Positions 30,950-53,606 of a stretch of 56,870 nt of DNA are shown one piece after another. A model generated the notes under the pieces. That model did no database searches. It worked only from the letters and a program-made list of their open reading frames with translations, and was not told the origin of the DNA. Within the stretch, counting starts at the first letter, position 1; each line of letters opens with the position of its first letter. The stretch spans positions 1 through 56,870 of the forward strand of contig JAJRXD010000014.1 in the NCBI GenBank assembly GCA_024276465.1. The letters are read 5' to 3'. Both the position numbers and the translations under genes were made by a program. Source of the DNA: Deltaproteobacteria bacterium (GTDB lineage: Bacteria > Desulfobacterota > WTBG01 > CAIYCZ01 > CAIRTM01).

Positions 30950-31123
30950 ATCATATAATATGTTAATGGGCATGATGTTAAAGAAATACAAAAAACTACA
31001 GGGATTACCCTTCGAGTACTGCGATTTATTTGTGTGCATGAAAGAACAAATCAAGGCAGACAAGAATCTGCAAAACATGTCATGTTAATCAGCATAGAGC
31101 AAATGTTAACATGAGTCAAAAGG

Positions 31124-31153
31124 AGACTTGCCCCCCCTTGCCCCCCCTGACTC
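31124..31153. repeat. C-rich direct repeat, right copy
   Basis: Second copy of the AGACTTGCCCCCC...CTGACTC repeat. If translation began at the upstream ATG (31111) the repeat would encode a proline/leucine-rich tail, which argues that cas6 starts later, at 31174. Confidence 0.6.
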
Positions 31154-31173
31154 TCTCTTTAAAAAAATCAGCT

Positions 31174-32877: not shown

Positions 32878-35475
32878 ATGGATGATACTGTTTACAAAAT
32901 TGCAATAGCAGGCTTGCTGCATGATATCGGGAAGTTTGCTGAGAGAGGTAGTATGCAAGTCAGCGATGAATTTCTGAACAACAATGCCGGCCTTTATCAG
33001 CCGTACTACAACAGCCATTATTCACATAAACATGCAGTTTACACTGCTGCTTTTATTGACCATATTGAGAAGTTTTTACCTGAGGAGTTTAACAGGGGGG
33101 GCTGGGGAATAGATGATCCATTTATAAACCTTGCAGCCGGTCATCACAAACCAGAGACGCCTTTACAATGGATAATTACTATGGCTGACAGAGTTAGCAG
33201 TGGTTTTGATCGAAATGAATTTGAAAACTATAACAGGGGAATAGGCTACAGGGATTATAAAAAAACCCGTATGCTAACAATCTTTGAGGGAATATCAACA
33301 GATGAGAAGTGGACAAAAAACAGCCTTGATGCTTTTAATTACAGATATCCACTAAAGGAACTGTCCCCAAATAATATTTTTCCTGCAAAAAGAGAGGAAC
33401 TGGATAGAAAGCAAGCTGATGATGAATACAGACAGCTTTTTGATGGTTTTTTAAGTGATCTTGAAAAACTTGCCCATAAGAAAAATATACCTCTGTGGTT
33501 TGAGCATTTTGACAGCCTGTTTATGATTTACGCATCACACATACCGGCTGCAACAGTTGGAAAGGTAATACCAGATGTATCTCTTTATGATCATTCAAAG
33601 ATGACAGCAGCCCTTGCTTCAGCTATTTATCAGTTTCACAATTATAACAACAGTCTTGAAACTAAACAGATAGACAACTATGAGGACAACAAATTTCTGA
33701 TTGTTAATGGTGATTTTTATGGAATACAGAAATTCATATTTGCAGAAGGAGGCAACACAAACAAAGCTTCTGCAAAACTGCTTCGTGGCAGATCATTTGC
33801 AGTGTCTCTTTTATCTGAACTTGCTGCTGACATGTTGTGCAGGGAAATGGGTTTACCTCAGACATCGGTTGTCTTGAACGCAGCTGGAAAGTTCACAGTT
33901 GTTGCACCGAGTACTGATGAAACACGAAAAAAACTTGTTAATGTTGAAGATAAAATTAATGGGTGGCTCATTAAAAACTTTCTCGGTGAGGTTTCAATAG
34001 GTATATCTTTTGTTGCTGCATCCTGTAGAGATTTTGTTTCAGACAGGTTTGGAAGTCTCTGGGACAGGCTGTCAAAAGAGTCTGAGAAAAGGAAATTCAG
34101 AAAAATAGATTTAAACAAATATGGAGGAGCAGTTGAGGGATATCTTGATGGGTTTAACAATGATCTGCAGGACAGTTTGTGTCCTTACTGCGGGAAAAGA
34201 CCGTCAGACCGTTTTGTTGAAGAAAAGGATACTGTCTTGAAAGAAAAAGGCTCTGCGTGCAAAATATGCAGGGATCATATATATTTTGGGACTACTCTGG
34301 TAAAAGCTGACCGAATTGCTGTTACAACTGTTGATGCAAATATATTCAGCAATAAACTTATGGAACCATTGTTTGGACAATATCAGGTAAGCCTTGATGT
34401 TGGGGGAGAACTTTCACAGTTGGCAGATGAAGGTAAACTGCTAAGATATTGGGACATATCAGGATCAGGTAAAGATAAAATTGCAGGGAACATTACAGTT
34501 AAGTTCATCAATGGTTATGTACCAGTATATAATGAAGATGACAACACAGATGAATCTATTGATCGCCTCCTTCATGGACAAAAATCTGAAGAAAAAAAGA
34601 CTGAACTTTTTGATATGATTCGAGATGGTGTTCCAAGAACATTTCACCATATATCAAAATGGGCTTTAAACAAACAAGATGATGGAAAGTATTGTGGGAT
34701 TGAGGCTCTCGGTGTTTTAAAGGCTGATGTTGATAACCTTGGACTTGTCTTTGCGTGTGGTTTAAAACATAACAGTTTATCAAGATTTGCTACATTAAGC
34801 AGACAGATGAACTATTTTTTTTCAATTTATCTCCCCTTTGTGCTTAAAACAAAAAAGGAATATAACAACATCTACACTGTTTTTGCGGGTGGTGATGATC
34901 TGTTCCTAATTGGCCCATGGAACAGGGTTATTGATTTTGCCCTTGATTTAAAAAATTCATTCACAAAATATGTTTGTTCTAATCCCGATATGAGCATATC
35001 TGCAGGAATCAGTATTAACCGACCCGGAGAACCTGTTCCACAAATAGATGAACGAGCTGAAACTGCACTGCATAGTTCCAAAACCAATGAAAAGAATTCC
35101 CTGACAGTTTTTGGTGAAACAGTTAATTGGAGCGACTATGAGAAATTAGAAAAAATTAAAAACACCCTGAAATCATGGTTTGAAATGGAATATTTCAGTA
35201 AAGCAATGTTTTACAGGCTGAATCATTTTACTGACATGGCAACGATGGAAAAAACACTGCTTGAGGAAAAATCTGAAATCAGTATGGATGATCTGTCCTG
35301 TTTGAAGTGGAGATCCCAGTTCAAATATAACCTTGCAAGGAATGTTGCAAAAAATTTAAAGGCCGAAGAAAAAAAGAGGGTTTTAAATGAAGTTGAAGAA
35401 ACTGCTGTCTGGTTCAGCCAGTATGGCGGTGCAATGAAAATACCACTTTGGCAAATTTTATATAATCAAAGATAG
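32878..35475 (+). CDS. cas10: Type III-A Cas10/Csm1, HD nuclease and cyclase motifs intact
   Basis: The 865-aa large subunit of the Csm complex. The N-terminal HD domain has LLHDIGKF with H15-D16, then HYSHKHAVYTAAF, so ssDNA cleavage looks possible. A central zinc finger uses C435, C438, C461 and C464. The palm domain carries FAGGDDLF with GGDD at 671-674, the catalytic site for cyclic oligoadenylate synthesis. Both activities are therefore predicted. It starts at an ATG after AGGGGGAAAAAC and leads csm2-csm3-csm4-csm5. Making cyclic oligoadenylate implies a receptor; the only CARF protein seen is damaged (40.4 kb). Confidence 0.97.
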   Translation: MDDTVYKIAIAGLLHDIGKFAERGSMQVSDEFLNNNAGLYQPYYNSHYSHKHAVYTAAFIDHIEKFLPEEFNRGGWGIDDPFINLAAGHHKPETPLQWIITMADRVSSGFDRNEFENYNRGIGYRDYKKTRMLTIFEGISTDEKWTKNSLDAFNYRYPLKELSPNNIFPAKREELDRKQADDEYRQLFDGFLSDLEKLAHKKNIPLWFEHFDSLFMIYASHIPAATVGKVIPDVSLYDHSKMTAALASAIYQFHNYNNSLETKQIDNYEDNKFLIVNGDFYGIQKFIFAEGGNTNKASAKLLRGRSFAVSLLSELAADMLCREMGLPQTSVVLNAAGKFTVVAPSTDETRKKLVNVEDKINGWLIKNFLGEVSIGISFVAASCRDFVSDRFGSLWDRLSKESEKRKFRKIDLNKYGGAVEGYLDGFNNDLQDSLCPYCGKRPSDRFVEEKDTVLKEKGSACKICRDHIYFGTTLVKADRIAVTTVDANIFSNKLMEPLFGQYQVSLDVGGELSQLADEGKLLRYWDISGSGKDKIAGNITVKFINGYVPVYNEDDNTDESIDRLLHGQKSEEKKTELFDMIRDGVPRTFHHISKWALNKQDDGKYCGIEALGVLKADVDNLGLVFACGLKHNSLSRFATLSRQMNYFFSIYLPFVLKTKKEYNNIYTVFAGGDDLFLIGPWNRVIDFALDLKNSFTKYVCSNPDMSISAGISINRPGEPVPQIDERAETALHSSKTNEKNSLTVFGETVNWSDYEKLEKIKNTLKSWFEMEYFSKAMFYRLNHFTDMATMEKTLLEEKSEISMDDLSCLKWRSQFKYNLARNVAKNLKAEEKKRVLNEVEETAVWFSQYGGAMKIPLWQILYNQR

Positions 35476-35488
35476 AGGAGGGTGTAAA

Positions 35489-35908
35489 ATGGAAATAAAG
35501 TTATGGAAGGATAAAAACAAAAATTTGGTTGACCCGGAGCTGTTTTCATCAAAAGCTGAAACACTGGCAAAAAAAATATTTAATGAAAAAACTAACAAAA
35601 CTAACAAAACAACACAAATTAGAAAATTCTATGAGGAGGTTTTGAGGTTTGACAGTATTACTAAATCAAACCCTTCAGAATTTGGAAGCGTGCTTCCTTA
35701 TCTGAAGATGATCAATGCAAAAGCAGCCTATGCTGTTGGGCGAGATCTTATTTCTCCAGGTTTTAAAGATTTTATTTCAGGATCATTAAATCAAGTTAAT
35801 GACAGGAAGGATTTTGAAATATTTGCTAATCTGTTTGAATCTTTCATTGGTTACTATAAATTCTATTATGAAAAGAATGAAACTACAGTCAGGGGAGGCA
35901 GAAGATGA
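35489..35908 (+). CDS. csm2: Csm2 small subunit
   Basis: A 139-aa helical protein, the small subunit of the III-A effector that lines the crRNA-target duplex. TTQIRKFYEEVLRFD and SVLPYLKMINAKAAYAVGR match the family. It has a GGAGG site 13 bp after cas10 and overlaps csm3 by 4 bp. Confidence 0.9.
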   Translation: MEIKLWKDKNKNLVDPELFSSKAETLAKKIFNEKTNKTNKTTQIRKFYEEVLRFDSITKSNPSEFGSVLPYLKMINAKAAYAVGRDLISPGFKDFISGSLNQVNDRKDFEIFANLFESFIGYYKFYYEKNETTVRGGRR

Positions 35909-36618
35909 AACTTACCAAAGTTAAAAAACTTGAAGGTACTATAAAGTTAAAAAGCGGTTTGCATATTGGTTCAGGTAATATGGAAATGCATATTGGGGGT
36001 ACTGATAGTCCTGTAATAAAACATCCACACACATTTGAACCTTACATTCCAGGTTCCTCAATAAAGGGTAAGGTAAGATCACTTTTGGAAATGGAAAGTG
36101 GATTGATGGTGCATACCGAAGGAAAGGTAGTCTCCATGAAAACGCTTAAAGAAGTCAATGGTGATAAAAAAGCTAAATGTGAAGCCATCCTCAAAATATT
36201 TGGTTCAAGCGGAGCGGATGAAGATGAATCAAATCTCGGGCCAACACGGGTATCATTTTCCGACTGTTATCTTGATGACAAATGGAAAGAATCAGCCAGG
36301 AATAACCGGTGGCTTTTTACAGAGGAAAAGTCTGAAAATGTCATAAACAGAATTAAAGGCACCGCAGAAAATCCACGTTTTATTGAGCGGGTACCTGAAG
36401 GAACAGAATTCAAGTTCCTTGCAACATTCAAAATCCTTCAGGACGGAGACGAGGATCTTTTTAATAGTGTACTTTTGAAGGGGTTGAAACTTCTTGAAAT
36501 GGATGCTCTTGGCGGAAGCGGCAGCAGGGGATATGGAAGAATATCCTTTGAGTTTACAGATAAACAGTTTGATGACAAGTTTAAATCAATAGATCCTTTT
36601 GCTGGAGGTGAAAATTGA
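35905..36618 (+). CDS. csm3: Csm3 backbone RAMP (target RNA cleavage)
   Basis: A 237-aa Cas7-family subunit. The region SGLHIGSG ... GGTDSPVIKHP contains D34, matching the Asp (D33 in characterised Csm3) needed for cutting target RNA every 6 nt. YIPGSSIKGKVRSLLE and GGSGSRGYGRISFE are further hallmarks. The single copy would oligomerise along the crRNA. It overlaps both neighbours by 4 bp, so the subunits are translated as a coupled set. Confidence 0.95.
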   Translation: MKLTKVKKLEGTIKLKSGLHIGSGNMEMHIGGTDSPVIKHPHTFEPYIPGSSIKGKVRSLLEMESGLMVHTEGKVVSMKTLKEVNGDKKAKCEAILKIFGSSGADEDESNLGPTRVSFSDCYLDDKWKESARNNRWLFTEEKSENVINRIKGTAENPRFIERVPEGTEFKFLATFKILQDGDEDLFNSVLLKGLKLLEMDALGGSGSRGYGRISFEFTDKQFDDKFKSIDPFAGGEN

Positions 36619-37658
36619 AGGTTTATGACATAACCATAAAACCGGTTTCCGGTTTTGGCACACCACTGAAGGGGGATACAATTTTTGGTCATTTTTGCTG
36701 GCAGATAGCACATGACGAATCTCTTGCTGAAAAACCTCTTTCTGATTTAATTTCACAATATTCTGAAAAGCCTTTTGCTGTTTTTTCATCAGCTTTCCCA
36801 AAGCTCTGTTTTGGCAGTAAATATCTTTATGCTTTTAAATCTCCATCTCTTCCCCCTGACAAACTGTTTAATATTCCGGGAAACAAAAAGGAGAGGATTG
36901 AGAAACGCAAGGAGTATAAGGCAAAGATATGGATGATGATTGAGGAGGGACAAAAATTATTCTCATTTAAAGATAAAGGCATTGACTTTCTAACTGATAA
37001 AGAATTGCTGATAAAAGCAGAAAGCATATTGAGTGAGAAAACAAAAAAGGATTTGCAAAAAGCAAGCATGAAAGGTCTTACCACAGGTTTTACTCAGCCT
37101 CATAATACCATTAACAGGCTGACTGCTACAACCGGCGGGGATGCTTTTGCTCCATATGCTGTTGATCAGCAGGTTTTTCTGCCGGAAACAGAACTTGCGC
37201 TTTTTGTGGGAATTGATGATGAGCTTATAACCATTGAGCAGGTAAAAGAAGGCATTGAGAAAATTGGTGCTTTTGGATTTGGCAAGGATGCATCCACTGG
37301 GCTTGGAAAATTTGAATTAGGAGAGGACACAGAAATTGATCTTGCTGAAATGGGAAGCGACAACCCTGATGCCTGCTATACACTTGCTCCTTGTGTTCCT
37401 GAGAGAGATATTTTTGAAGAAACATTTTTCACTTCTTTTACAAGGTTTGGACGCCATGGGGACAGATTGGCAAATTCAGCCAATCCTTTCAAAAATCCCG
37501 TTATCATGGCAGATGAGGGAGCTGTTTTTAAGCCAAAAGAATCCAGTATTTTCAACAAACCATACATTGGCAGAGCAGTGTCCGGTGTTTCAAAAATTCA
37601 GCAAAAAGCTGTGACCCAGGGGTATTCACTTTTTATCCCTGTGAATTTGGAGGTTTAA
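36615..37658 (+). CDS. csm4: Csm4 (Cas5-type, crRNA 5' end binding)
   Basis: A 347-aa Cas5-group RAMP. KPVSGFGTPLKGDTIFGHFC is the conserved N terminus, and FGKDASTGLGKFELG supplies the glycine-rich loop. It binds the 5' handle of the crRNA and contacts Cas10. Translation begins at TTG 36615 overlapping the csm3 stop, with GGAGGTG just upstream; no ATG gives the conserved N terminus. Confidence 0.93.
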   Translation: MKVYDITIKPVSGFGTPLKGDTIFGHFCWQIAHDESLAEKPLSDLISQYSEKPFAVFSSAFPKLCFGSKYLYAFKSPSLPPDKLFNIPGNKKERIEKRKEYKAKIWMMIEEGQKLFSFKDKGIDFLTDKELLIKAESILSEKTKKDLQKASMKGLTTGFTQPHNTINRLTATTGGDAFAPYAVDQQVFLPETELALFVGIDDELITIEQVKEGIEKIGAFGFGKDASTGLGKFELGEDTEIDLAEMGSDNPDACYTLAPCVPERDIFEETFFTSFTRFGRHGDRLANSANPFKNPVIMADEGAVFKPKESSIFNKPYIGRAVSGVSKIQQKAVTQGYSLFIPVNLEV

Positions 37659-37663
37659 AATAT

Positions 37664-38980
37664 ATGGAAAATTTGCTGTATATAAAACTTCATATAATGT
37701 CGCCTGTTCATATAGGCTGTGATGATGTGTATGAGCCGACAGGGTTCAAGTTTGATGCAAACAGCAAAAAACTTATTGCTTTTGATCCTCTTGTTTTTAT
37801 TGAGAGTCTTTCTGATTCTGATCGCGACAAATTTGCTTCGATATGTATGAAGGGTACAATAGAGTCAATTATTGAACTTTACAGATTTATTTCTTCCAAA
37901 ACCATATCAGGCAGAGAGGTTGATGTTTCTGATGATATGATCAGCCATTATAAGAAGGTAAAAAATATTTCGGGTAACAGAATTCAACAGGAACTTAACA
38001 AATTTACAATTAGCAGAACAGCTTACACACCTTATATTCCAGGATCATCTTTAAAGGGCTCATTGCGGACAGCTTATTTGAGCATGCTGGCAAAGGAGAA
38101 AAAAATCAATAATTGGAAGCGCAAAGCAAAAGAGCTGGAATTTGAGTTGTTGGGGGGCAAATTTGAAACTGATCCATTCAGAATGATTAAGGTTTCCGAT
38201 TTTCTGCCTGTTGAAAATGTAAAAACAAAAATAATCTATGCTGTTAATAAAAAGAAGGGTTCTATGACAGATGCAAAAGGGCCTTTTCAAATTCTTGAAG
38301 TGATTCAGCCCGGGTCAGTTTTTGGTGGTGTTATAAATATTCAAGAGCCAGATACATCTTCAGACATTACAAATCCTATTAAAAAGGAGAAATTTTTACT
38401 GTCACTAAGGAGCTTTTATGGATCTGGTGTTAACAGCAAAATCATAAAGCAGTTTAATGGGGCAGATATTTCCCCAGTTCGTCTGGGAAGACATTCAGGA
38501 GCAGAATTTGTAACCATTGAAGGAAACAGAGATATAAAAATTAATCTGGGTAAGGGAAAATCAAAATGTCTTGATCATGCAACAACTATTTGGCTTGCAT
38601 CTGAGAGCAGAAAACCAGGGTCTAATAATGGCTTGCAGCCTTTTGGCTGGGCAGTAATGGAACTTGTGGACAAACCTGTTGCAACTATTGATCCCATGAA
38701 ATTTGTTGTGTTGAAATCAGCAATATCACCTGATACAAAACAGAATCCTGAACCTTTACCTCCTCCACCTCCGGAACCACTCATAAATAAGTTGATAAAA
38801 AAAATCAAGGTTTTGAAGCCTACGGATGCCGGAATTATCTCTACAGTTATAAGGGATGCTCTTGAACATCTTGAAACCGAAGAGGATAAGAAAAAATTTG
38901 CCCTTGCAGTAAAAGAGCATATGGGCAAGACATTCAAAAAATCCAAAGCAAAAAAGAGACTCGATCTGTTTATTGAATAA
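37664..38980 (+). CDS. csm5: Csm5 with C-terminal helical extension
   Basis: A 438-aa RAMP that caps the 3' end of the complex. HIMSPVHIGCDDVYEPTGF and YIPGSSLKGSLRTAYLS are the expected motifs. After about residue 360 there is a proline linker (PEPLPPPPPEP) and a lysine-rich helical tail of about 65 residues that is not part of the usual Csm5 core. This tail could be a docking site for an extra partner; that is inference. Confidence 0.93.
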   Translation: MENLLYIKLHIMSPVHIGCDDVYEPTGFKFDANSKKLIAFDPLVFIESLSDSDRDKFASICMKGTIESIIELYRFISSKTISGREVDVSDDMISHYKKVKNISGNRIQQELNKFTISRTAYTPYIPGSSLKGSLRTAYLSMLAKEKKINNWKRKAKELEFELLGGKFETDPFRMIKVSDFLPVENVKTKIIYAVNKKKGSMTDAKGPFQILEVIQPGSVFGGVINIQEPDTSSDITNPIKKEKFLLSLRSFYGSGVNSKIIKQFNGADISPVRLGRHSGAEFVTIEGNRDIKINLGKGKSKCLDHATTIWLASESRKPGSNNGLQPFGWAVMELVDKPVATIDPMKFVVLKSAISPDTKQNPEPLPPPPPEPLINKLIKKIKVLKPTDAGIISTVIRDALEHLETEEDKKKFALAVKEHMGKTFKKSKAKKRLDLFIE

Positions 38981-39006: not shown

Positions 39007-39483
39007 ATGAAAAAAGACCACTGGCAGAAAGAAATAACCGTAACCTACCCTCGCGAACAGAGGGATTTATATAAACATGATGATCCCTGTTGCATTTACG
39101 AACAATGGCCGGGTCGTGTTGGAATTCATAAAGCAGGCAGAAACTTTCCAGCCATGGTTGCAAAAAAGCATTTTATGGATAAAGGCTATTCTGTATTAAA
39201 ACAGTATTTTTTAATGCGCTGCCCCCGACAACGTGAGTATAATGAGGGCTTCGCAATGCTGTGTAAAATATTTGGAGAACCTGCGGTAAGACAGCTTATA
39301 AAAAACGCCCTGCCACTTAAAGGTGGTGATCCTGATCTGTTTGTTTACAAGCCTGATTTAACAGAAAAGTTTTTTGTGGAAGTGAAAGAAAATGATGAGC
39401 TGACTTCCAACCAGCTGCAACTTTTCCCTCTAATTGTCAAACATCTTTGTCCAGTTTATGTTGTGAGGGTAAAGCCGCAATAG
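39007..39483 (+). CDS. VRR-NUC-like PD-(D/E)xK nuclease in the csm operon
   Basis: A 158-aa protein. The C-terminal half has a VRR-NUC/restriction-like active site: GGDPDLFVYKP (Asp) and FFVEVKENDELTSNQLQLFP (E-x-K, followed by Q). An N-terminal part with charged and aromatic residues precedes it, and no CARF or SAVED sensor is present. It follows csm5 by 26 bp on the same strand, so it is likely made with the effector. Possible roles are degradation of foreign DNA or help in spacer capture. It is not a standard core cas gene. Confidence 0.7.
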   Translation: MKKDHWQKEITVTYPREQRDLYKHDDPCCIYEQWPGRVGIHKAGRNFPAMVAKKHFMDKGYSVLKQYFLMRCPRQREYNEGFAMLCKIFGEPAVRQLIKNALPLKGGDPDLFVYKPDLTEKFFVEVKENDELTSNQLQLFPLIVKHLCPVYVVRVKPQ

Positions 39484-40411: not shown

Positions 40412-41656
40412 ATGAAAGCCATTATTATCACAGTAGGAACAGGAAGCAGGCCTGATATTGATATTACAAAACCTCTTGTAAAAACTATAAAGAACAGTCA
40501 TCCAGATTTCACTGCTTTTATTGTTTCAGAAGGCAGCCGTCAATATGCATGTAAGATTGCTAATGAACTTTCTTTTGACAATTCAAAACATGAGATATTT
40601 GAATTGTCAACTGCTGAAGATTTACAACAGATCTTCAAGGAAATTAACAATGCCTTCCGTGCTTTGTATAAAAGGGGCTTTAAATCTGATGAAATTGAAG
40701 CCGATTATACAAGCGGGACAAAGGCGATGACTGGCGGGCTTGTTCTATCGGCTATTTTTAATTCCTGCGCTTCCTTGAAATATATTACAGGTGATAGAAA
40801 AAATGGTATTGTTCAGGACGGTACAGAGCGGTTTCTTGCTGTTCCTCCTGAAGGCATATTTTCCCGCAGGGAATTGCAGTTCGGACTCAGACTTATGGAT
40901 GAAATGCGTTTTGTATCTGCACTTGAAATTTTTAAAAATATCAACAACTCACTTCTTGACAATTACGATAAGGATCTTATTTACAATGTAATGCCCCTTG
41001 CCCAGGCGTTTATAAGCTGGGACAGGTTTGACCATTTCAGGTTTTTCAGCGAATATGATAAAATTAAATTTGACTATAATGAAATCGAGAAATTCAGGAT
41101 TAATAAATCAGCACAGGAAAATATACTGAAAATTGGGAAGACAATAAAAAGTGGTTGTATCACTCAGGATGTTATTATTGATATTTACAACAATGCTGCC
41201 AGAAGGTTTATTGAGGGAAAATTTGATGATACGCTTGCTCGATTATATCGTGTGGCAGAGATGTTGGCTCAGTTAGTATTGAAGAAAGAGTTTCAGATTG
41301 AAACAGGAGACGTAAAAATTGATAAAATTCCCAAGGATAAAAGAGGGAATATTGAGTCATACAGTGATGATCGTAGTGGTAAAATAAAAATAGGTCTAAA
41401 AAGGTCCTTTGTTTTACTGAATTAACTTGGTTCTAAAACTGGCAAAGCCTTTGAAGGAAATGACAGGCTTCAGGGCATTTTGAATGAAAGAAACAATTCG
41501 ATTCTTGCCCACGGAACAAAACCTATAGAAAAGAAACTATGCGAATCTCTTTTTAAAGAAATTGACAGTTTGCTTTGCTTGTTAATACCTGATTTTAAAT
41601 TAAAATCTGATGAACTACAATTCCCCTGGATAAAAAAAAATCACAATCGTGTCTGA
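40412..41656 (+). pseudogene. CARF-HEPN (Csm6/Csx1-like) ribonuclease interrupted by TAA
   Basis: The N-terminal CARF domain (TVGTGSRPDID, then EADYTSGTKAMTGGLVLSAI) should bind cyclic oligoadenylate. TAA at 41423-41425 ends the product at 337 aa. The frame stays open for 76 more codons to TGA 41654-41656, and this tail contains ERNNSILAHG, the R-x6-H catalytic motif of the HEPN domain. The full frame overlaps the GTG start of the next cas6 by 8 bp, which supports it as the ancestral length. A GAA glutamate codon before LG was probably lost. The short product would keep the sensor but not the RNase, and could only soak up signal or degrade it in the CARF ring. Confidence 0.82.
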
Positions 41657-42575
41657 CTTCACCCTTTCACGTTTCAAATTCACCATACAGCTTCAAAAAA
41701 GCGGTCGCCTTCCGCCATACAAGGGCTCGACTATTCGCGGTGCTGTTGGCCATGCTCTCAGGGATATTTCCTGCAAAAAACCATCCTGCAACTGCCGGGG
41801 CTGTGAATATGTGAAGGCATGTTTGTTTGTAAAGCTTTTCAAACCAGACCAGGAAACCGGCAAAAGCATTCCAGCCTCCTATGTGATTGACCCTCCGGCA
41901 CTCAAAGAGACTGATTTTTCATCTGGCTATGAGATATCCTTTTTCCTGACACTTTTTGGATGGGCAGATCAATATTTCAAGACATGGATTGAGGCTGTGA
42001 AACTCTGTGGTGAAAAGTATGGTCTTGGTACAGCAAGAATTCCTTTTACTCTCAGACTTGTTCAGTGTATCCCGTTTAATACAGAACCGGTTGTAATGTA
42101 CACTGAAGGCAGCTTCGCAGACATTAATGTCAGGAAAATAACTTTTTCACAGATGAAAGAAAAAAACACTCTGCCTTCATCTGCCCTGCAGAAGGTTTCA
42201 ATATGTCTGCTGACCCCTTTAAAGCTCAAGCAGCAGGGTGCTGTAAGCAGCAAAGTAACAGCCGGGCTTTTCATCAATGCAATTTTGCGCAGGCTCAGGG
42301 CTCTGTCGCAGTTTTATCAGACCGGTAGTTTCCCGGACAATGATTACCGCAGTATTGCTGAACAGGTTACTGCGACAGATCATGCCCTTAAATGGGTTAC
42401 ACTTGAGAGGCAATCTGTCAGTCAGCCTTCACACATAAACCTTGGCGGTTTAACAGGGCGTTTTATCCTGAACAACCTGCCTTCCCGTCTTTATCCCCTT
42501 CTCAGGCTTGGTGAATTTGTCCATATTGGCAAAAACACTGTCTATGGCTGCGGAAAGTATAAAACAGTTATATAA
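41649..42575 (+). CDS. cas6: Cas6-family pre-crRNA endoribonuclease (copy 2)
   Basis: A 308-aa Cas6-like RAMP, paralogous to the protein at 31.2 kb. LPPYKGSTIRGAVGHALRD is followed by a cysteine-rich segment CKKPSCNCRGCEYVKACLF, and the C terminus has RLGEFVHIGKNTVYGCGKY. It starts at GTG 41649 inside the end of the CARF-HEPN frame, indicating translational coupling. Only one repeat type is visible in the array, so it is not obvious why two Cas6 proteins are kept. One may be specialised for a second array elsewhere. Confidence 0.85.
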   Translation: MSDFTLSRFKFTIQLQKSGRLPPYKGSTIRGAVGHALRDISCKKPSCNCRGCEYVKACLFVKLFKPDQETGKSIPASYVIDPPALKETDFSSGYEISFFLTLFGWADQYFKTWIEAVKLCGEKYGLGTARIPFTLRLVQCIPFNTEPVVMYTEGSFADINVRKITFSQMKEKNTLPSSALQKVSICLLTPLKLKQQGAVSSKVTAGLFINAILRRLRALSQFYQTGSFPDNDYRSIAEQVTATDHALKWVTLERQSVSQPSHINLGGLTGRFILNNLPSRLYPLLRLGEFVHIGKNTVYGCGKYKTVI

Positions 42576-44367: not shown

Positions 44368-44506
44368 CCTGTAAAGGTTTCATAAAAATAAAAGGCTCAG
44401 GCCTTAACTCCAGGATTAAAATCATGGAATTGTGAGGCCACAAAGGTATGAGGCAAAATTCAGAATACTGAATAAAAACCCTGAACCCGTAACCCGTGTA
44501 ACTGCT

Positions 44507-46219
44507 ATGATTAAAGAGACTCAAATTGTAAAAAACTGTTCGAGCAGCAGTCATGACAGTGGTAACCTTGAACTGCTTATGCGCCTTATCGAAAAATGTG
44601 TAAGCGAAGGGCGGGAGAATGAGGCAAAACGTATATTTGATTCAGCAGGAAACATATCATTTGTTTCGGGTAATGAGGCACTCGGATGGGGCATGATTGC
44701 GGAGATGCTTGGAAAAACATCCACAGCATGCAGGGTATATAAAAATGCGATTGAAGATTCTGGAACTGCCCCTGAGGCATTTATGAGACTGGGGCAAATA
44801 TGCCTGGAAAGAGGTGACACAGAAAAGGCAGAATCTTTTTTTAAAGAAGCCGGGCGCAGGGGCCTTCCCCCTGTTATGCAGCATGAGATTATGCTTGACA
44901 AACAGTCGGCAGTATCTGCTGAGCCTGATTTTGTTCCTTTGCCGCTGCGTGATATCCGCATACAGCAGGCAGCAGATCGGTTTTTACAGCTTTTCCGTGG
45001 CAGGCAGGGACTGTATGCCAGGCAGTGGTATGACAGTTCTAAAAATATTAGCGGTTATGCACCAATACATTCACTGTTTACGCATGATGTTGCAGTAAAG
45101 CATCTTTCCGGTGCATTTACTGTCGGAGTTTATCCTCTAACTGAGGAGAGTACGGTTTTCTTTTCCGCGCTTGACATAGATGTCAGGAAAAGCTGTCTTG
45201 TGCTAATGAAGGAAGATGCTTTGTTCAGGAAAAAAGTAGACAGCAAGATTAAAGAACTTATCAAAAGAATATATGAGTGGTCATTGTCAAAAGAATTGAC
45301 AGTTGTTTTTGAAGACAGTGGCTGCAAGGGTGTGCATGCATGGTATTTTTTTAAAAAGGCTGTGCCGGCAGCATTTGCCATGGACATTCTCAATACATGT
45401 GTTGAATCACTTGCAGAAATACCTGAAGAAATCAATATGGAAGTTTTCCCCCGTCAGGCAGTATCAGGAGGAAAAGGATATGGCAATCTGATAAAGCTTC
45501 CTTTAGGGATACACCGCAGGTCAGGCAGAAAAAGTGTTTTTCTTGACCAGTACGGGAATCCTGCTGATGATCAGATCAAACATCTTCTCAACATAAGGAA
45601 GAATTCCACAGAGGTTTTGGACAGTTGATATGAAACATGGCTGAGTGACAGACAGAAAAAGAAAGTTTCAAATATTTTTGTGAAACAAAATACCAGCTCT
45701 GTGTCTTCAGGAAAAAACCTGGCTGATTCAGGGGGAAAGCTTGGCGAGAAATGTGCCATGTTAGCTTACCTGATAAATAAAGTCTCAGAACACCATCACC
45801 TGAGCTTTGCTGAAAGAAAGGTACTGTTAGGGGTTTTCGGCCATGTTGAAAACGGGAAAAAAGTGCTTCATGATGTTATCTCCAGATGTTCAGACTACAG
45901 TTCCCAGATTACTGATCATTACATCTCAAGGCTGAAAGGTACTCCTCTTGGATGCCGAAAAATACGCAGAATGCTTTTTTACCTTGAGGGAAGTATCCCC
46001 TGTGACTGCAGTTTCACTTCAGGCAAGTGGGAATATCCCACACCTTTGCTTCACCTGAACAGTCAGAAAACAGATTTGGCTGATACAGCTACTGGCAGGG
46101 ATGATCTAAGGAATGATGTTTGTATGCTGAAAAATGAAATTACAGAGCTTAAAAAAACAGTAGAGGATATAAAAAATGGAAACCGTGTACATTGTAGAAC
46201 AGGGCACACAGCTTCATAA
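44507..46219 (+). pseudogene. TPR-fused CRISPR-associated primase-polymerase (CAPP), interrupted by TGA
   Basis: N-terminal TPR-like helices are followed by an archaeo-eukaryotic primase domain. It has the metal-binding LDIDV (about D223 and D225), the nucleotide-binding SGCKGVHAW and IKLPLGIHRRSG. TGA at 45626-45628 stops the frame, which then remains open to 46219. The second part contains a PriL-like cysteine set: SRCSDY, LGCRKIRRML and IPCDCSF. CAPPs accompany Cas1-Cas2 in type III loci and may process or copy prespacers. The part before the stop still holds the catalytic core. GTG 44432 is an alternative start. Read-through, loss of function or base error are all possible. Confidence 0.82.
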
Positions 46220-47228
46220 GGATGGGTTTCGTCTTCTGGCCAAAAAAAACGGCAGGCTGATTGATGAAATAATGACAAGGGACCTTGAGCAGATAATATT
46301 GCTTGGCAATGTTTACATAACACCTCCTGTTATGGACCATCTGATTCAAGACAGGGTAGATACTGTTTTTTTAAGCCAGTCTGGCAGGTTCAGGGGCAGG
46401 CTGCTTACACAGTTTACCAAAAATGTGGAGTTGCGGCGTCAGCAGTATCTGCGATTTGATAATCAAAACACCACCCTTGATTTTGCCAGGGCAGTTGTAA
46501 GCGGAAAAATAAACAACCAGAGAATTTTTCTTATGCGCCACAACAGGTCTCTGAAAAATGATAAAATTGCTGCCTCGCTTGGAAGGATGAGGGCACTGCT
46601 GTCCACCCTGAAGAATGCTGATTCAACTGCAAGTCTGATGGGTAGTGAAGGAGCAGCAGGAAAGGCATATTTTTCAGCCTTTAACTATCTTATCAAGCGG
46701 GAAGATTTTATTTTCAGGGGAAGAAACAGAAGACCTCCGCGTGATCCGGTCAATGCACTGCTTTCCTTTGGATACACAATGCTTGCCAATGCTGTTGAAA
46801 CAGCAGTAAATATTGTAGGGCTTGATCCTTATTTAGGGGCATTTCACAGCATTGAGTATGGAAGGCCTTCCCTGGTATGCGACCTGATGGAAGAGTTCAG
46901 AGCATTTTTTATCGATTCTCTTATTATAACACTTATTAACAAACGTATTGTTAACCCTGATGATTTTATATACAGGGATGTTGCTGACATACAACTCAAA
47001 CAGTACGAAGAAGAACAGACTGATGACAAAATGCCTGTCTCGATGAAAAAAGAGGCTTTAAAGGGTATTGTGAGAATTTTTGAACAGAAGATGTCGAGCA
47101 CAGTTTTCTATCAGCCTACAGGGGAAAATATTACATACAGGCAGGTTATTTTAAATCAGGTCAGGCAATGTGCCAGGGTTATTCTTGGCAAAGAGGATCA
47201 GTACCAGCCTTTTACATGGAGCCACTGA
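46176..47228 (+). CDS. cas1: CRISPR integrase Cas1
   Basis: A 350-aa Cas1 of full length. The active-site Glu lies in MGSEGAAGKAYF, the His in AFHSIEYGRPSL and the Asp/Glu in VCDLMEEFR. The N-terminal beta-domain and the C-terminal helical domain are both complete. AGAGGATATAAAA precedes ATG 46176. It overlaps the CAPP frame by 44 bp and the cas2 start by 1 bp (TGATG). It integrates spacers at the leader end of the array located 700 bp downstream. Confidence 0.96.
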   Translation: METVYIVEQGTQLHKDGFRLLAKKNGRLIDEIMTRDLEQIILLGNVYITPPVMDHLIQDRVDTVFLSQSGRFRGRLLTQFTKNVELRRQQYLRFDNQNTTLDFARAVVSGKINNQRIFLMRHNRSLKNDKIAASLGRMRALLSTLKNADSTASLMGSEGAAGKAYFSAFNYLIKREDFIFRGRNRRPPRDPVNALLSFGYTMLANAVETAVNIVGLDPYLGAFHSIEYGRPSLVCDLMEEFRAFFIDSLIITLINKRIVNPDDFIYRDVADIQLKQYEEEQTDDKMPVSMKKEALKGIVRIFEQKMSSTVFYQPTGENITYRQVILNQVRQCARVILGKEDQYQPFTWSH

Positions 47229-47509
47229 TGTTTTGTCTTGTATGCTTTGATATTGCAGATCACAGGAAACGCTACAGGGTTGTTAAGGAGTTGAAAGGGC
47301 TGGCAGTGCGTGTTCAAAAATCAGTTTTTGAATGTGCTGATTTAAAGGAAAACCGTTTTCTTGAACTCAAAAAAAGACTTGAAAAAATAATCGACCTTTC
47401 AGAAGATACTGTGCGTTATTATTTTCTTTGTAAAGGATGTACCCCAAGAGTTGAATATTCAGGAAAAGGCGACAACCCTGTAACAGATGAAGGTTTTAAA
47501 ATAATTTAA
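47228..47509 (+). CDS. cas2: CRISPR adaptation protein Cas2
   Basis: A 93-aa ferredoxin-fold protein with CLVCFDIADHRKRYRVVKEL (the conserved Asp after strand 1), VQKSVFECADLKENRF and YFLCKGC. It dimerises and bridges Cas1 dimers. Its start shares one base with the cas1 stop; an upstream in-frame ATG at 47168 lies inside cas1 and is not credible. Confidence 0.94.
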   Translation: MFCLVCFDIADHRKRYRVVKELKGLAVRVQKSVFECADLKENRFLELKKRLEKIIDLSEDTVRYYFLCKGCTPRVEYSGKGDNPVTDEGFKII

Positions 47510-47933: not shown

Positions 47934-48650
47934 GATTGAAAATAGCCCCGATACTTAAGGGGATTGCGACAAATATCCTCCTTTAACTGATAAAACTTTA
48001 CCTGTGATTGAAAATAGCCCCGATACTTAAGGGGATTGCGACGTTTTGGTTCAACATACTTATCACATTGCTTACAAGATTGAAAATAGCCCCGATACTT
48101 AAGGGGATTGCGACTATTTCCAGCACCAATCTGTAAGTGCTGGAGTCATCGATTGAAAATAGCCCCGATACTTAAGGGGATTGCGACTCTTGAATATGTT
48201 ACGAATTGCTGTGAGTAGAATTGTAGTTGATTGAAAATAGCCCCGATACTTAAGGGGATTGCGACTTTTCCCTTTCTATTTGTTTAAAACAATCTCATAG
48301 ATTGAAAATAGCCCCGATACTTAAGGGGATTGCGACTAAAAACGGTTGAGGGTTGGCTCATCCGTGGGCATGATTGAAAATAGCCCCGATACTTAAGGGG
48401 ATTGCGACAAAAGACGTTTGACATCCCTTGTTCCCAAATGCTTCGATTGAAAATAGCCCCGATACTTAAGGGCTGAACGAAAACCCTGTTTTTTGTTAGC
48501 GCGGCATACGTAGGAGCCGGCTTTAGCCGCGAAAAACAGACCTGTTGCTGCGTAATATCGCGCCTGAAGGCGCTCCTGCAGAAAATTATTGATCAGATTT
48601 TAACCTGAATCAGGACTTTTCGTTCAGACACTGCTTAAGGGGATTGCGAC
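47934..48650 (+). CRISPR. CRISPR array with 37-bp repeats, last repeat disrupted
   Basis: Seven intact identical repeats start at 47934, 48006, 48078, 48151, 48229, 48300 and 48372. The repeat begins GATTGAAAATAGCCCC, contains a CCCC...GGGG hairpin and ends GGGGATTGCGAC, giving the handle ATTGCGAC of type III crRNAs. Seven spacers measure 35, 35, 36, 41, 34, 35 and 36 bp. The eighth repeat begins at 48445, is cut at 48470 by a small element and resumes at about 48632-48650. Transcription is on the plus strand, so the element lies at the leader-distal end. Spacer 3 carries its own inverted repeat TCCAGCAC/GTGCTGGA. Confidence 0.97.
48471..48631. mobile_element. MITE-like element inside the terminal CRISPR repeat
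   Basis: About 160 bp with terminal inverted repeats GGCTGAACGAAAACCCTG and CAGGACTTTTCGTTCAG at its two ends. Direct flanks TACTTAAG (left) and TGCTTAAG (right) look like an 8-bp target duplication with one difference. Inside are two REP palindromes in inverted orientation (48510-48533 and 48557-48579). It has no coding capacity. Confidence 0.75.
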
Positions 48651-49126: not shown

Positions 49127-49828
49127 ATGAACACAGCCATTCCCAAGACTTTTAATGAGTTTGCCCGGAAATACACTCCCAGAATAAGAAACTATATCCT
49201 TGCTCGAAATAAAGAAAATTCAGTAAAAATTGATCCGGACGAATTTGTCCAGGAATTTCTCATAAAGTTTAACAAAAAAAACACCCTTGAAAAGTACAAT
49301 CCGGAAAGGGGTGCATCTTTTGACACATGGCTTTACAGAATTCTTTACAATTCTTTCTGTACCTCCTTCAGGTTAAAGAAAGAAGAAAATGAAGAGGTTT
49401 TCAACCTGCCGGAAAATTATGAAAAATTTATAAGTGACCACAAGAAAGACAGTAACACTGAAAGGTATTTAAAAACCAGGGATGCTTTTATATGTATCAG
49501 TGAAGAAGATATTGAGCTGATTTTGAATTTTACAGAGGATATTTCAGATGTACGTGAGCGCCTGTCAATAAAACTGAAAGCTTACCCTTATATCGATTTA
49601 AATGATGAAGATCTGGATTTTATGGCACAAAAAACGGGTATTGAAAAAAAATATCTGCCAGATGAACTCAAAAAAATGTATGGAACAAAACCTGGTGAAA
49701 GAGCAGGCTTGAAGGATAAAGATATTGCAAGACTTCTTGGATTTTCAAGTTTTACAAATCAGCGTGACAGAGCAGTAAGAAAGTATATAATCCCACAGTA
49801 TAAATATATGAAAAGCAGAAAACAATGA
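49127..49828 (+). CDS. RpoE/CASP-sigma-like RNA polymerase sigma factor
   Basis: A 233-aa sigma-70 family protein. Region 2 lies at about residues 36-90: DPDEFVQEFLIKFNKKN, YNPERGASFDTWLYRILYNSF. A long acidic/charged linker follows, and region 4 with a helix-turn-helix (GLKDKDIARLLGFSSFTNQRDRAVRKYI) ends it. Sigma factors of this type accompany TPR-CHAT proteases in type III-E CRISPR loci. Its stop overlaps the next start by 4 bp. It heads a four-gene operon ending in a protease, which suggests release from an inhibitor by cleavage. Confidence 0.85.
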   Translation: MNTAIPKTFNEFARKYTPRIRNYILARNKENSVKIDPDEFVQEFLIKFNKKNTLEKYNPERGASFDTWLYRILYNSFCTSFRLKKEENEEVFNLPENYEKFISDHKKDSNTERYLKTRDAFICISEEDIELILNFTEDISDVRERLSIKLKAYPYIDLNDEDLDFMAQKTGIEKKYLPDELKKMYGTKPGERAGLKDKDIARLLGFSSFTNQRDRAVRKYIIPQYKYMKSRKQ

Positions 49829-50469
49829 TGTGTACTGTTGACAACAGAAAAATTTTCCTGAAATTCCCAGAGTATTCAAAAGGCTCTGGCAATAGTGTAA
49901 GTGCGTGGAAAATTTCTCATTTTGTTAAACATGTAATTTTTGAACAAGAGATGGATCTCTATCAGGTTTTGCAGATTGGTGATGAAAAAATCAAGATGTT
50001 TGATCTAAAACTCAAGAAGGAGTTTAACTGTGCTTTAAGGAGCAATAAAAATCTGAGAGATAATCAAAAGATTTCTGTTTGTTCATATTGCCCTTCCATA
50101 ACCAGATGTAAAGATGAGTTTAAAGAGTATGTTGAAGCTTATACAGAATATTCAAGAAATGTTGTAAGTCAGGATATCCACAAACCACGTCATATCTATT
50201 TTAAGACTGAACAGGAATCTGACAGCCTTGTATTTGTTGATGCTGCAGGTGTTATCGTAATTACAAAAAATTGCTATCCAAAGCTGATATTAAAATCATG
50301 TTTTCGCCCTTTCCACTACACTGCTCTGATTACACCTATGATGACATTACTTAAAACCGATTTTGCGGATAAATATTATCTCCTGCTTGCAAAAAAAACG
50401 ATCAGACAAAGAGTTGACAGGGGAAAATATTTCAGCACTGAATTTATATTAGAAAAGAACTGGCATTAA
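49825..50469 (+). CDS. Csx31-position protein of unknown fold
   Basis: A 214-aa protein with no domain I can name. It contains a cysteine group (ISVCSYCPSITRC) and several basic and aromatic stretches, with no signal peptide or membrane segment. By operon order and size it occupies the place of Csx31 next to the sigma factor. In the characterised type III-E locus Csx31 is a partner of the sigma-inhibitor complex. Homology to Csx31 cannot be proven here. Confidence 0.5.
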   Translation: MMCTVDNRKIFLKFPEYSKGSGNSVSAWKISHFVKHVIFEQEMDLYQVLQIGDEKIKMFDLKLKKEFNCALRSNKNLRDNQKISVCSYCPSITRCKDEFKEYVEAYTEYSRNVVSQDIHKPRHIYFKTEQESDSLVFVDAAGVIVITKNCYPKLILKSCFRPFHYTALITPMMTLLKTDFADKYYLLLAKKTIRQRVDRGKYFSTEFILEKNWH

Positions 50470-50470
50470 A

Positions 50471-51532
50471 ATGAAAATATCTACACCTGGTGAGAAATTA
50501 CATAGTATGTATCTTCGTGCTCTCAAGGACATCGAGCTGTTTTCAGAGGTCATGATAGAGGACAGTGATAATGGTGACCAGTCAATAGAGCTGCTGTTAA
50601 CAGAGGCGATGTATTCGATTGCCTGCTGTTCAAGGGCAGTCAGACAGATAAAACCAGGCCAGGGAATACAGGCTAAAGTCATTGATCTCAAGAACTGTCT
50701 TAATGAAGGCTTTCAGTTGATGAGTGGAGATGGAATTAAGCGGCTCAATATGTATCTTAGTGATTATTTCAGTGTGACAAGGATTGAAAGCAGGGTAAAT
50801 TCCCTGAAAAACAGGTTTGAGACTGCCTTTAATTCAAAAAAACTTTATGAACTAATAGAAGATGAAGAGGTCGAAGATCAGGTTTTTGATTACTTTCTTT
50901 TCATAGATCGTTATGCCTGTTTTAATAATCCCGAGGATTGTCCTGTTGGTGGTCTTGAAGATACCCTGGCTAAAGGCAGGAACAGTGTTGACTATGTCTG
51001 CACCAGACTCAAAGCAATCTTTAATATTTACTCAAAATCAATTGTTACATACAGATTAAACACTTTTATACCAGATGATTCAGTTTACAGTTTCTGGTTT
51101 GAGTTTCAGGAAGTTCCTGTTGAAGATTTTGTATATGCGTTTGAAAAAAAACTGTTTGAAACAGCTCCAGAGAGAATGGTTTTCAAGGCACTTCTGCAAA
51201 CCCTTCCCGAAATTATTTCAAGCAAAATAAAAAAAACAGGAATTGAAAAAAATCTAAAAAGCTTGACAGGCATTCTCGGCGACCAGGCACAAGAGGTTTT
51301 TGGACTGATTGCTGCTGTTGTGCAGTCCCCTGAGCTTGCTGTTGAGAAGTCATGGAGTAAAGATGGAGATGAGATTGAATTAATCCGTGCACACCATGCC
51401 GAAGATCTGCAGAAAGAAGCTTCGCGTCTGCAGAAAGAATTTGATGGAGTAGAAAAAAGAGACGTATTGATACTTGAATATCTCCTGGCAGGTGATGAGG
51501 ATAAGCTTGAAGACTTGTTGAAAGAATTATGA
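50471..51532 (+). CDS. Csx30-position protein, candidate protease substrate and sigma inhibitor
   Basis: A 353-aa, mostly helical, soluble, acidic protein. It ends in a charged segment (VEKRDVLILEYLLAGDEDKLEDLL). It lies immediately before the TPR-CHAT protease gene (4-bp gap) and 1 bp after the preceding gene. In Craspase systems Csx30 binds the sigma factor and is cut by Csx29. By position this protein is the best candidate for that role. It is shorter than the well-known Csx30, and no cleavage site can be predicted from sequence alone. Confidence 0.5.
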   Translation: MKISTPGEKLHSMYLRALKDIELFSEVMIEDSDNGDQSIELLLTEAMYSIACCSRAVRQIKPGQGIQAKVIDLKNCLNEGFQLMSGDGIKRLNMYLSDYFSVTRIESRVNSLKNRFETAFNSKKLYELIEDEEVEDQVFDYFLFIDRYACFNNPEDCPVGGLEDTLAKGRNSVDYVCTRLKAIFNIYSKSIVTYRLNTFIPDDSVYSFWFEFQEVPVEDFVYAFEKKLFETAPERMVFKALLQTLPEIISSKIKKTGIEKNLKSLTGILGDQAQEVFGLIAAVVQSPELAVEKSWSKDGDEIELIRAHHAEDLQKEASRLQKEFDGVEKRDVLILEYLLAGDEDKLEDLLKEL

Positions 51533-51536
51533 TCAA

Positions 51537-53606
51537 ATGGGATATGGTTTATTTAAAGAATATTTTGAAAAGGTTGAAAAAAATATTGATAAGGGTCTGC
51601 ATGAACAGGCTCTTGAGTTTTTGAAAAAAATCAGAAAAAATAATTTAGGCCATCAACAGAAAACATATTATAATATTTTATTTTCTGACATTCACAGTCA
51701 TCTTGGGCAATTTCACAGTGCCCTTACTCTCCAGTACAAAATCATAAATTCTCCCCTGCCGGAGCCTCTTTTAAGGTCCATAGCTTTTCAATCACATGCT
51801 TTTACATTGGGCTATACCGGCAGAATTAATGAAGCTCAAAAATACTTTGAGTTGTCTAAGGAAACAGCCTGCAGGCTCAAAAGAAAGTTTCTTTTTTATT
51901 CGTCAGAGATAGGAATGATTGACATTGAGTTTCATGATTATGAATATGACCGGTTTAACCCTGATCATAATGTCAGTCTTTTTAATAAAATAGGATCAGT
52001 TCTTCAAAATGTGTCAGCTGATGTTTTATTGCAAGAGGAAGATCCGTATAATAAAAAAATATTAGTATCCCTTCTGAATTTCAGAAAAGCTGTTTTATTG
52101 TGGTTGAACAGAGACTATACATCTGCAGAAAATGCTTTTGAGATAACAAACAAGTTTTCAGATAATTTTTTTAAGGTCTGGGCTTTGTTCGGACTTATAA
52201 ATTGTTCTCAAAAAAATAAAGACCAGCAAAACAGATGGAAACAGGAGCTTGAGAAAGCACTGAAAATAAAAGCATGGCGAAAAAATGCAATGAAATACTG
52301 GCCTGTTGCTCTGTTATTAGGAAAAACCTGGCAGTTGATGGGGCAGAATGAAAAGGCCCAATCTTTTTACAGGGATATTCTGTTGAAGGTCAGGGTTGGG
52401 TACACTGATCAGAAAATCGCATCAAATGATTACTCGGTTTTTATAACCAGGTATTTTTACCCTGTTTACAGGGAAGCAGCCACACATTATTTAGGGATTG
52501 ATTCCCAGCACAGTAAACCTCAATACAGGTATGCATTGAACCGTGCTGAAATGTTTCGGGCACGTTTTTTAAGTGAGGAATATAAAAAGCATCATAACAG
52601 GAAGAAAGTTGAAAATATTTTAACTTCAAATGTCCGAATAGATGAAACAGGCGCCTTGCTGTCCAACAGGTTCAAAAAGGACGTTTTTATACTCTACTGT
52701 TTTGATTTTAAAAACTCCGGATTGTTATTGCTTTCTAAAGACCTGTCAACAGATTACAGGAAAATTGAGATAAATACAGATGATTATAAAGTGCTGAAAA
52801 GTTTTTCCCGTAAACCTGTTTTTACAATCAGGGAAATTAATATATTCAGCAAGGTGTTTAAAGAACTTATTTGTAAAATCAACACAGGGCATCTTCTGAT
52901 TATTCCCCATGGGATATTTAACCACGTGCCCTTTCATGCCCTGAAAAAAGACAGTGGCCATCTTATAAAAAATACGCTGGTAAATTACTGGCCCTCTCTG
53001 CAAATGGCTGTACTGGGGGAACATGAGAAACAGATTAATAAAATAAAAATAACCTGTATTGGTACCAGGGATGACCCTGCATCCAGGGATGAAATTGATC
53101 AACTGGCAGCAAAAATAAAAAATTGCAGGGTTTTTTATGATCCAGAAATTCCTGTGATAAAAAAAGCGTTGAGTATTGGTGATAGCCTGCTTCATGTTGT
53201 TGCCCACGGTCAAATAAACAGCAGTAAAAATGATATTACTGTAATTAGAATCAATGGTAAAAACATTGAATTTGGTGAGATTGTAAAAAATATTGAGAAT
53301 CTTCCTGAAATCATTTTGCTTAATGTCTGTTATGGTGGGTATACTGGGCATACAGATGCTGATTTTATCCAGGGATTGCCAGTAACTTTTTTTCAGAAAG
53401 GGACAGAAGCTCTTATAGTATCCCGCCGCAGATTATCACAGCAGATCAGTACTGAATTTTCACAATGTTTTTACCATCATTTCAGCTCTGGTGACACACT
53501 GGGTAAAGCCTATCAGAAAGCCATTGTAAAACTGGTTGACAATAAAGACACTGTTGGAAACATACCATGCCTGATGGGTAACAGCATGATAAAAGTCTCT
53601 TTGTAA
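51537..53606 (+). CDS. TPR-CHAT caspase-like peptidase (Csx29-like)
   Basis: A 689-aa protein. Residues 1 to about 360 form TPR-like helices. Residues about 380-689 form a CHAT peptidase domain, with H557 in HVVAHG and C598 in LLNVCYGGY. The 41-residue spacing is close to that of the Csx29 His-Cys dyad. IPHGIFNHVPFHAL is the usual CHAT entry motif. It carries no CARF or SAVED sensor, so it should be activated by binding a partner. In type III-E that partner is Cas7-11, which is absent here; the Csm complex is the available alternative. Confidence 0.88.
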   Translation: MGYGLFKEYFEKVEKNIDKGLHEQALEFLKKIRKNNLGHQQKTYYNILFSDIHSHLGQFHSALTLQYKIINSPLPEPLLRSIAFQSHAFTLGYTGRINEAQKYFELSKETACRLKRKFLFYSSEIGMIDIEFHDYEYDRFNPDHNVSLFNKIGSVLQNVSADVLLQEEDPYNKKILVSLLNFRKAVLLWLNRDYTSAENAFEITNKFSDNFFKVWALFGLINCSQKNKDQQNRWKQELEKALKIKAWRKNAMKYWPVALLLGKTWQLMGQNEKAQSFYRDILLKVRVGYTDQKIASNDYSVFITRYFYPVYREAATHYLGIDSQHSKPQYRYALNRAEMFRARFLSEEYKKHHNRKKVENILTSNVRIDETGALLSNRFKKDVFILYCFDFKNSGLLLLSKDLSTDYRKIEINTDDYKVLKSFSRKPVFTIREINIFSKVFKELICKINTGHLLIIPHGIFNHVPFHALKKDSGHLIKNTLVNYWPSLQMAVLGEHEKQINKIKITCIGTRDDPASRDEIDQLAAKIKNCRVFYDPEIPVIKKALSIGDSLLHVVAHGQINSSKNDITVIRINGKNIEFGEIVKNIENLPEIILLNVCYGGYTGHTDADFIQGLPVTFFQKGTEALIVSRRRLSQQISTEFSQCFYHHFSSGDTLGKAYQKAIVKLVDNKDTVGNIPCLMGNSMIKVSL

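Follow-up and report, generated by a model that had tools for sequence, protein, structure and literature searches.

A four-gene operon with a sigma factor and a TPR-CHAT protease lies beside a type III-A CRISPR locus without Cas7-11

The analyzed window, a stretch of 56,870 nucleotides, is contig C162 of a 4.1-Mb metagenome-assembled genome (MAG) that is 95% complete. Its CRISPR locus contains cas10/csm1 (32878 to 35475, plus strand; TIGR02578, 1e-201) with intact HD and GGDD motifs, followed by csm2, csm3, csm4, and csm5 (35489 to 38980, plus strand), which were recognized by profile matches of 3e-15, 1e-64, 2e-26, and 3e-18, respectively. With Cas10 and Csm2 to Csm5 present, the locus is of type III-A and complete, as the preliminary description had stated. 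On the same strand follow a VRR-NUC gene, a gene for a CARF-HEPN (Csm6/Csx1-like) ribonuclease (40412 to 41425; TIGR02710, 5e-43; PADLOC CARF_HEPN, 6e-71), cas6 (41649 to 42575; Pfam, 6e-15; PADLOC, 7e-72), and TPR and PrimPol genes (TPR-PrimPol of the adaptation module, 44432 to 45628; AEP-TOTE, 9e-43; PADLOC PrimPol, 2e-64). The series ends with cas1 and cas2 (46176 to 47509), of which cas1 matched at 5e-92 and cas2 was assigned from size, position, and sequence. A second cas6-like gene (31111 to 32106, plus strand) was identified by alignment of the two cas6 sequences. The CRISPR array (47934 to 48494) consists of eight units with a 37-nt repeat, the last repeat being interrupted. Judging from its motifs, Cas10 is apparently active, and since GGDD is kept and a CARF-HEPN gene is present, a nucleotide is probably produced. 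Cas7-11 had been reported as missing from the locus, and its absence extends to the rest of the 95%-complete genome: the RAMP family PF03787 matched only Csm3 and Csm5, and in a positive control it did pick up the Cas7-11 fragments of a true III-E locus.

The operon (49127 to 53606) begins 0.6 kb past the array. It comprises four tightly spaced plus-strand genes arranged head to tail, with a 4-bp overlap between genes 1 and 2 and subsequent gaps of 1 bp and 4 bp; the coordinates and close packing described before were borne out by the list of open reading frames (ORFs). Gene 1 (49127 to 49828) encodes an ECF-like sigma factor of 233 aa, which matched Sigma70_r2 above the cut-off (Pfam, 4.5e-7), TIGR02937 (1.6e-10), and, below the cut-off, the III-E sigma model NF041236 (2.5e-4). 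It is followed by the genes for a 214-aa protein (49825 to 50469) and a 353-aa protein (50471 to 51532), neither of which had a Pfam match, and by the gene for a TPR-CHAT caspase-like protease of 689 aa (51537 to 53606). A promoter scan of the operon region yielded 24 sites versus 23.7 expected and was therefore given no weight.

The protease matched the CHAT domain above the Pfam cut-off (8.9e-17). The dyad proposed for it, H557 and C598, is intact: both residues are invariant in all three orthologues (3/3), and in an alignment they coincide with their His and Cys counterparts in a genuine Csx29. A CHAT domain with this His/Cys dyad marks the protein as a predicted CHAT peptidase. Apart from CHAT, Pfam and PADLOC returned only a marginal TPR match, and neither detected CARF or SAVED in any of the four operon proteins, in agreement with the view that no such sensor is fused to the protease. 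An assignment of gene 4 to Csx29 by sequence was rejected. The curated Csx29 model NF041237 (cut-off, 300 bits) scored 25.5 bits on the window protein, within the CHAT part only, and gave E values of 6e-6, 1e-4, and 1e-7 for the three TPR-CHAT proteins, again in the CHAT part; an ordinary CHAT protein of one of these genomes (G008) scored better (51.7 bits, 5e-14). A CHAT tree that placed Csx29 with the operon proteins (82/88) was set aside because long branches meet. Foldseek searches with a low-confidence structure model of the protease (pLDDT 58) ranked the Craspase TPR-CHAT chains 7y8t_B and 8d9f_A as the top two of 350,542 PDB chains, albeit with low TM-scores; below them came separase and DdvA, an anti-sigma factor that contains a CHAT domain. 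This modeled fold likeness to the Craspase TPR-CHAT is at most suggestive. A VIA-align comparison of the same model listed only TPR-containing proteins, Csx29 not among them, and tests little.

The 214-aa protein displays four conserved Cys residues, an H-x2-KH motif, and a PR motif in alignments. The Csx31 model NF041235 found no match in the window genome or in the two relatives with the operon and was positive in G130, a genome with a sigma-csx31-csx30 locus; homology of gene 2 to Csx31 was not found, either with three or with 15 sequences. A CxxC...C...YT similarity to Csx31, seen by eye, did not survive testing. The 353-aa protein was modeled by AlphaFold (pLDDT 79) as two all-helical domains without a convincing match to any solved structure. 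The Csx30 model NF041234, again positive in G130, had no match at E ≤ 10 in the three operon genomes (G000, G003, and G008), and comparison of the 353-aa protein with the G130 Csx30 gave nothing; the identification of gene 3 as Csx30 is not supported. Searching the PDB by sequence, with individual proteins as well as profiles, recovered neither Csx29 nor Csx30. The names Csx29, Csx30, and Csx31, which the preliminary description had given to genes 4, 3, and 2, are therefore unsupported.

Searching the class for the 353-aa protein uncovered its gene in two more genera belonging to the same family (G003 and G008, recorded as Deltaproteobacteria/Thermodesulfobacteriota MAGs). Each has all four operon genes in identical order, adjoining cas6 and cas10-csm, so that the association with Csm loci suspected at the outset holds in related genomes, and wherever the 353-aa gene was found (three of three cases) it belonged to this four-gene operon next to cas10-csm. 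Because two other genera have the whole four-gene set next to cas10-csm as well, its position is more than chance. Only the same two relatives turned up in a 395-genome sample of the phylum and among 84,980 species genomes, the latter screened with short exact peptide patterns that more divergent copies may escape. None of these searches found an operon copy without Csm; the operon sequences compared are three in number and come from MAG contigs. Viral and plasmid collections held no operon relatives, and the two plasmid matches were generic CHAT domains.

The proteins of the window are 44% and 36% (TPR-CHAT), 33% and 31% (353 aa), 32% and 34% (214 aa), and 33% and 32% (sigma) identical to those of the two relatives; over all genome pairs, identities were 32 to 37% for the sigma factor, 32 to 34% for the 214-aa protein, and 31 to 33% for the 353-aa protein. 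In every genome pair the operon proteins thus lie at roughly the same distance, incongruent with the divergence of the Csm proteins, which are 50 to 76% identical between the window and G003, whereas those of G008 are distant (23 to 39%). Given these equal distances and two Csm lineages, the operon either stayed with Csm across both or moved between them.

The 214-aa profile weakly matched a protein of G390 encoded beside a sigma gene, and an enlarged profile found good gene-2 members in 14 genomes of the class of G390. A fifteenth family match (7e-4) contains stop codons. The wider family scored 52.4 against the three operon proteins versus at most 19.2 for shuffled columns (hhalign, 4e-7), and by this profile similarity, the four Cys, and H-x2-KH the 214-aa protein is assigned to a wider sigma-associated family. 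Twelve fetched contexts gave a readable gene-2 member. In 11 of them an ORF of sigma size lies ahead on the same strand, and most of these clearly resemble sigma factors in profile matches or on inspection. The member is followed by a protein of about 500 aa, which in 10 of 12 cases has an HxxxCxxC zinc-associated anti-sigma (ZAS) motif; several of these proteins carry a membrane helix and DUF4384. Some trios or pairs neighbor protease-like genes: a C14 caspase gene overlaps the anti-sigma gene in G955, a TPR-CHAT gene lies near the trio on the same strand in G745 and facing it in G834, and a Lon-like protein adjoins the gene-2/ZAS pair of G998. With the exception of G790, no cas1, cas10, csm, or cas6 was seen within the 4 to 16 kb viewed around the trios; CRISPR genes may lie further off.

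In G790, a sigma factor, a 213-aa gene-2 member, and a 521-aa ZAS-motif anti-sigma factor are followed directly by Csx29 (NF041237, 1e-155, above the cut-off) and Cas7-11 (NF041225, 1e-136 and 2e-55, two ORFs at the contig end). By these matches G790 is a genuine III-E locus in which the trio stands where csx31 and csx30 usually stand. The 520-aa ZAS family had no match to Csx30. In G130, the only genome returned when its class was searched with Csx31 for III-E loci, a Lon-like protein follows sigma-csx31-csx30 and precedes RT-Cas1. It is 32% identical over 663 residues (7e-94) to the Lon-like protein of G998, the name resting on a marginal TIGR02902 match (E 0.06) and motifs seen by eye. Thus, the Csx31-Csx30 and gene-2-ZAS inhibitor cassettes each occur with Csx29 (the former in known III-E, the latter in G790) and with Lon-like proteins, two presumed protease families, and therefore look interchangeable, as would be expected for exchangeable components of a single type of switch. 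The III-A operon adds a third combination, in which the gene-2 family goes with the 353-aa protein and TPR-CHAT. Of the Craspase-like plan proposed for the operon, the layout stands, since a gene-2 member sits between the sigma factor and Csx29/Cas7-11 in G790; the gene-by-gene Csx identities do not.

The III-A operon shares with the ECF sigma/ZAS operons the sigma factor and the gene-2 family, and some of the latter likewise lie beside caspase-like genes. However, those operons have no cas genes nearby, and their anti-sigma factor is often membrane-anchored with DUF4384, whereas the zinc motif is absent from all three 353-aa orthologues. The 353-aa protein is also without a membrane helix. 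Its first 218 residues gave a weak collinear match to the N-terminal half of the ZAS family (hhalign, E 0.008; score 29.4, where 100 column shuffles reached no more than 23.3), and single-sequence comparisons stayed within background. Position and this weak match are suggestive of the 353-aa protein being the anti-sigma factor and the protease substrate. It could instead be a toxin or other effector freed by cleavage, the sigma factor merely driving the operon; the missing anti-sigma motif and the lack of any matched fold would fit such a role. We consider it improbable, as the protein occupies the syntenic position of the anti-sigma factor in G790 and in the cas-free operons, and its N-terminal domain resembles, weakly, the ZAS family.

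The many genomes in which relatives of genes 1 and 2 form cas-free operons with a zinc-motif anti-sigma factor raise the possibility that the operon works on its own, as a stress or abortive-infection switch that is located in a defence island and unresponsive to Csm. That reading appears unlikely to us, because all three copies adjoin cas10-csm, in three genera and two Csm lineages, and none without Csm was found. From the gene neighborhood, which is what links the operon to Csm, we favor (probability, about 0.6) that it is an accessory protease/sigma arm of the neighboring Cas10-Csm III-A system. Counting against this are the incongruent divergence of operon and Csm proteins, the missing HxxxCxxC motif and weak anti-sigma similarity of the 353-aa protein, and a Craspase docking place that Cas10 would fill. 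In type III-E, Csx30 binds and inhibits a sigma factor and is cleaved by Csx29 in response to target RNA (PMC10028731). On this model, recognition of foreign RNA by Csm would activate TPR-CHAT, which would cut the 353-aa protein, perhaps in a variable, low-confidence loop near residues 288 to 298. Cleavage of this putative inhibitor would then release the sigma factor and turn on defence genes.

Like the III-E Craspase operon, the one described here has the sigma factor first and TPR-CHAT last in a four-gene order, a CHAT His/Cys dyad, and a gene 2 whose homologue occupies the equivalent position in G790. It differs in that the effector is Cas10-Csm2-5 without Cas7-11, that Cas10 and a CARF nuclease are present, and that the operon genes have no match to curated Csx29, Csx30, or Csx31. 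In Craspase, TPR-CHAT has a location like the one that Cas10 takes in III-A (PMC9729208), and since an intact Cas10 is present here, the system does not simply reproduce Craspase, and its activation step could not be carried over as it stands. TPR-CHAT might nevertheless dock on Csm beside Cas10 and detect the target RNA at its 3′ end, in the manner of Csx29 on Cas7-11. Such contact is possible, although short of an even chance: the Craspase chains came first in Foldseek, the TPR and CHAT layout is similar, and the identities of TPR-CHAT track the Csm relationship most among the operon proteins (44% versus 36%), but the corresponding place is occupied by Cas10, the model is of low confidence, and Csx29 identity is absent by sequence.

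Alternatively, a cyclic oligoadenylate or other nucleotide made by Cas10 may activate TPR-CHAT through its TPR part or another operon protein. We hold this trigger and docking elsewhere on the complex about equal. The retained GGDD, the CARF-HEPN gene, and the filled Cas10 place fit the nucleotide route, and the equal distances of the operon proteins, set against Csm identities of 50 to 76% versus 23 to 39%, suit a diffusible signal. The route also resembles the SAVED-Lon (CalpL) and SAVED-CHAT pathways, though its sensor would be of an unrecognized kind. Known CRISPR protease-sigma systems are III-E Csx29/Csx30/sigma and CalpL/CalpT/CalpS, and a SAVED-CHAT cascade has been described as well (PMC11229360). 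With CalpL-CalpT-CalpS (SAVED-Lon, anti-sigma, and sigma; type III) the locus shares Cas10-type CRISPR, a protease, and a sigma factor; it differs in a TPR-CHAT protease without SAVED, and no relation between the substrate proteins was detected. The SAVED-CHAT cascade (type III-B) likewise ties a CHAT-type protease to a Cas10 system, whereas here there is TPR, SAVED was not found, and a sigma factor and two partner genes share one operon. Against the route, no operon protein contains a recognized CARF or SAVED sensor, and gene 2 is unlikely to be a CRISPR-special nucleotide sensor because its relatives occur in operons without cas genes.

The best reading is that a sigma/inhibitor/protease switch has been borrowed by CRISPR more than once, here presumably serving III-A. 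A fuller version, which we put forward tentatively at slightly less than even odds, is that a Cas10 III-A system drives a protease and a sigma factor without CARF or SAVED, either with TPR-CHAT docking on Csm alongside Cas10 or with TPR as a new nucleotide sensor, and that this operon and the accessory genes of Craspase were recruited separately from one older non-CRISPR sigma/anti-sigma/protease module. An open-access search, incomplete in coverage, yielded no description of TPR-CHAT with Csm, and in the 2025 classification (PMC12669027) CHAT appears only as an abbreviation in a legend, with no III-A form described in the passages searched.

In the literature examined, TPR-CHAT protease switches are described only with Cas7-11, the protease taking the place of Cas10. 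That such an arrangement also occurs next to an intact Cas10-Csm therefore makes the protease arm appear a transferable module and not a peculiarity of III-E, and raises the question whether nucleotide signaling and a protease can be operated simultaneously by one complex. Should Csm be able to control a site-specific protease, novel RNA sensors built on a multisubunit effector become conceivable. The gene-2 family, with its cas-free sigma/anti-sigma operons, some of them beside caspase-like proteases, represents a possible ancestor from which CRISPR may have borrowed.

The csm operon of the window is bracketed by two divergent cas6-like genes (31111-32106 and 41649-42575), whose products share 25% identity. 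The Cas6 proteins of G003 and G008, two other genera carrying the same four-gene operon beside cas10-csm, are 38% identical to each other, and either shows 21-25% identity to the two cas6-like proteins of the window; this pattern, in which G003 is nearer to G008 than to the window, differs from that of the Csm proteins. A gene with a VRR-NUC domain (39007-39483; VRR-NUC match, 3.6e-5) lies between csm5 and the CARF-HEPN gene. At 48465-48641, a MITE-like element of ~160 bp splits the final repeat of the CRISPR array; this element has perfect 11-bp inverted ends (CTGAACGAAAA/TTTTCGTTCAG) and is flanked on both sides by the 8-bp direct repeat CTTAAGGG.

The family of the 214-aa protein encoded by gene 2 of the operon (49825-50469) retains four cysteines together with H-x2-KH, PR, and TCY-like motifs, a pattern that may be reminiscent of small BECR-fold ribonuclease toxins. 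In genome G790, a family member occurs in a genuine III-E locus with Csx29 and Cas7-11, the latter split into two ORFs close to the contig end (L066:1-9004; G790:C50). The accessory genes there encode a sigma factor, the gene-2-family protein, and an anti-sigma factor with the zinc motif HxxxCxxC (ZAS), in place of csx30/csx31. A single operon of G955 comprises genes for a sigma factor, a gene-2-family protein, a membrane anti-sigma factor (DUF4384), and a C14 caspase (L067:7053-11817; G955:C110); no cas genes were found around it in the 16 kb analysed.

In G998, a gene-2-family protein and a ZAS anti-sigma factor are followed by a 734-aa Lon-like protein (L071:285-4723; G998:C483), which shares 32% identity with a 744-aa Lon-like protein of G130. 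The latter is encoded on a single contig in the order sigma factor, csx31, csx30, Lon-like protein, and RT-Cas1 (L014; G130:C19:1-10431). Csx29 was not found in the G130 genome, the Cmr-type loci of which lie on contigs other than C19. Csx30/Csx31 are paired in G130 with another presumed protease, the Lon-like protein.
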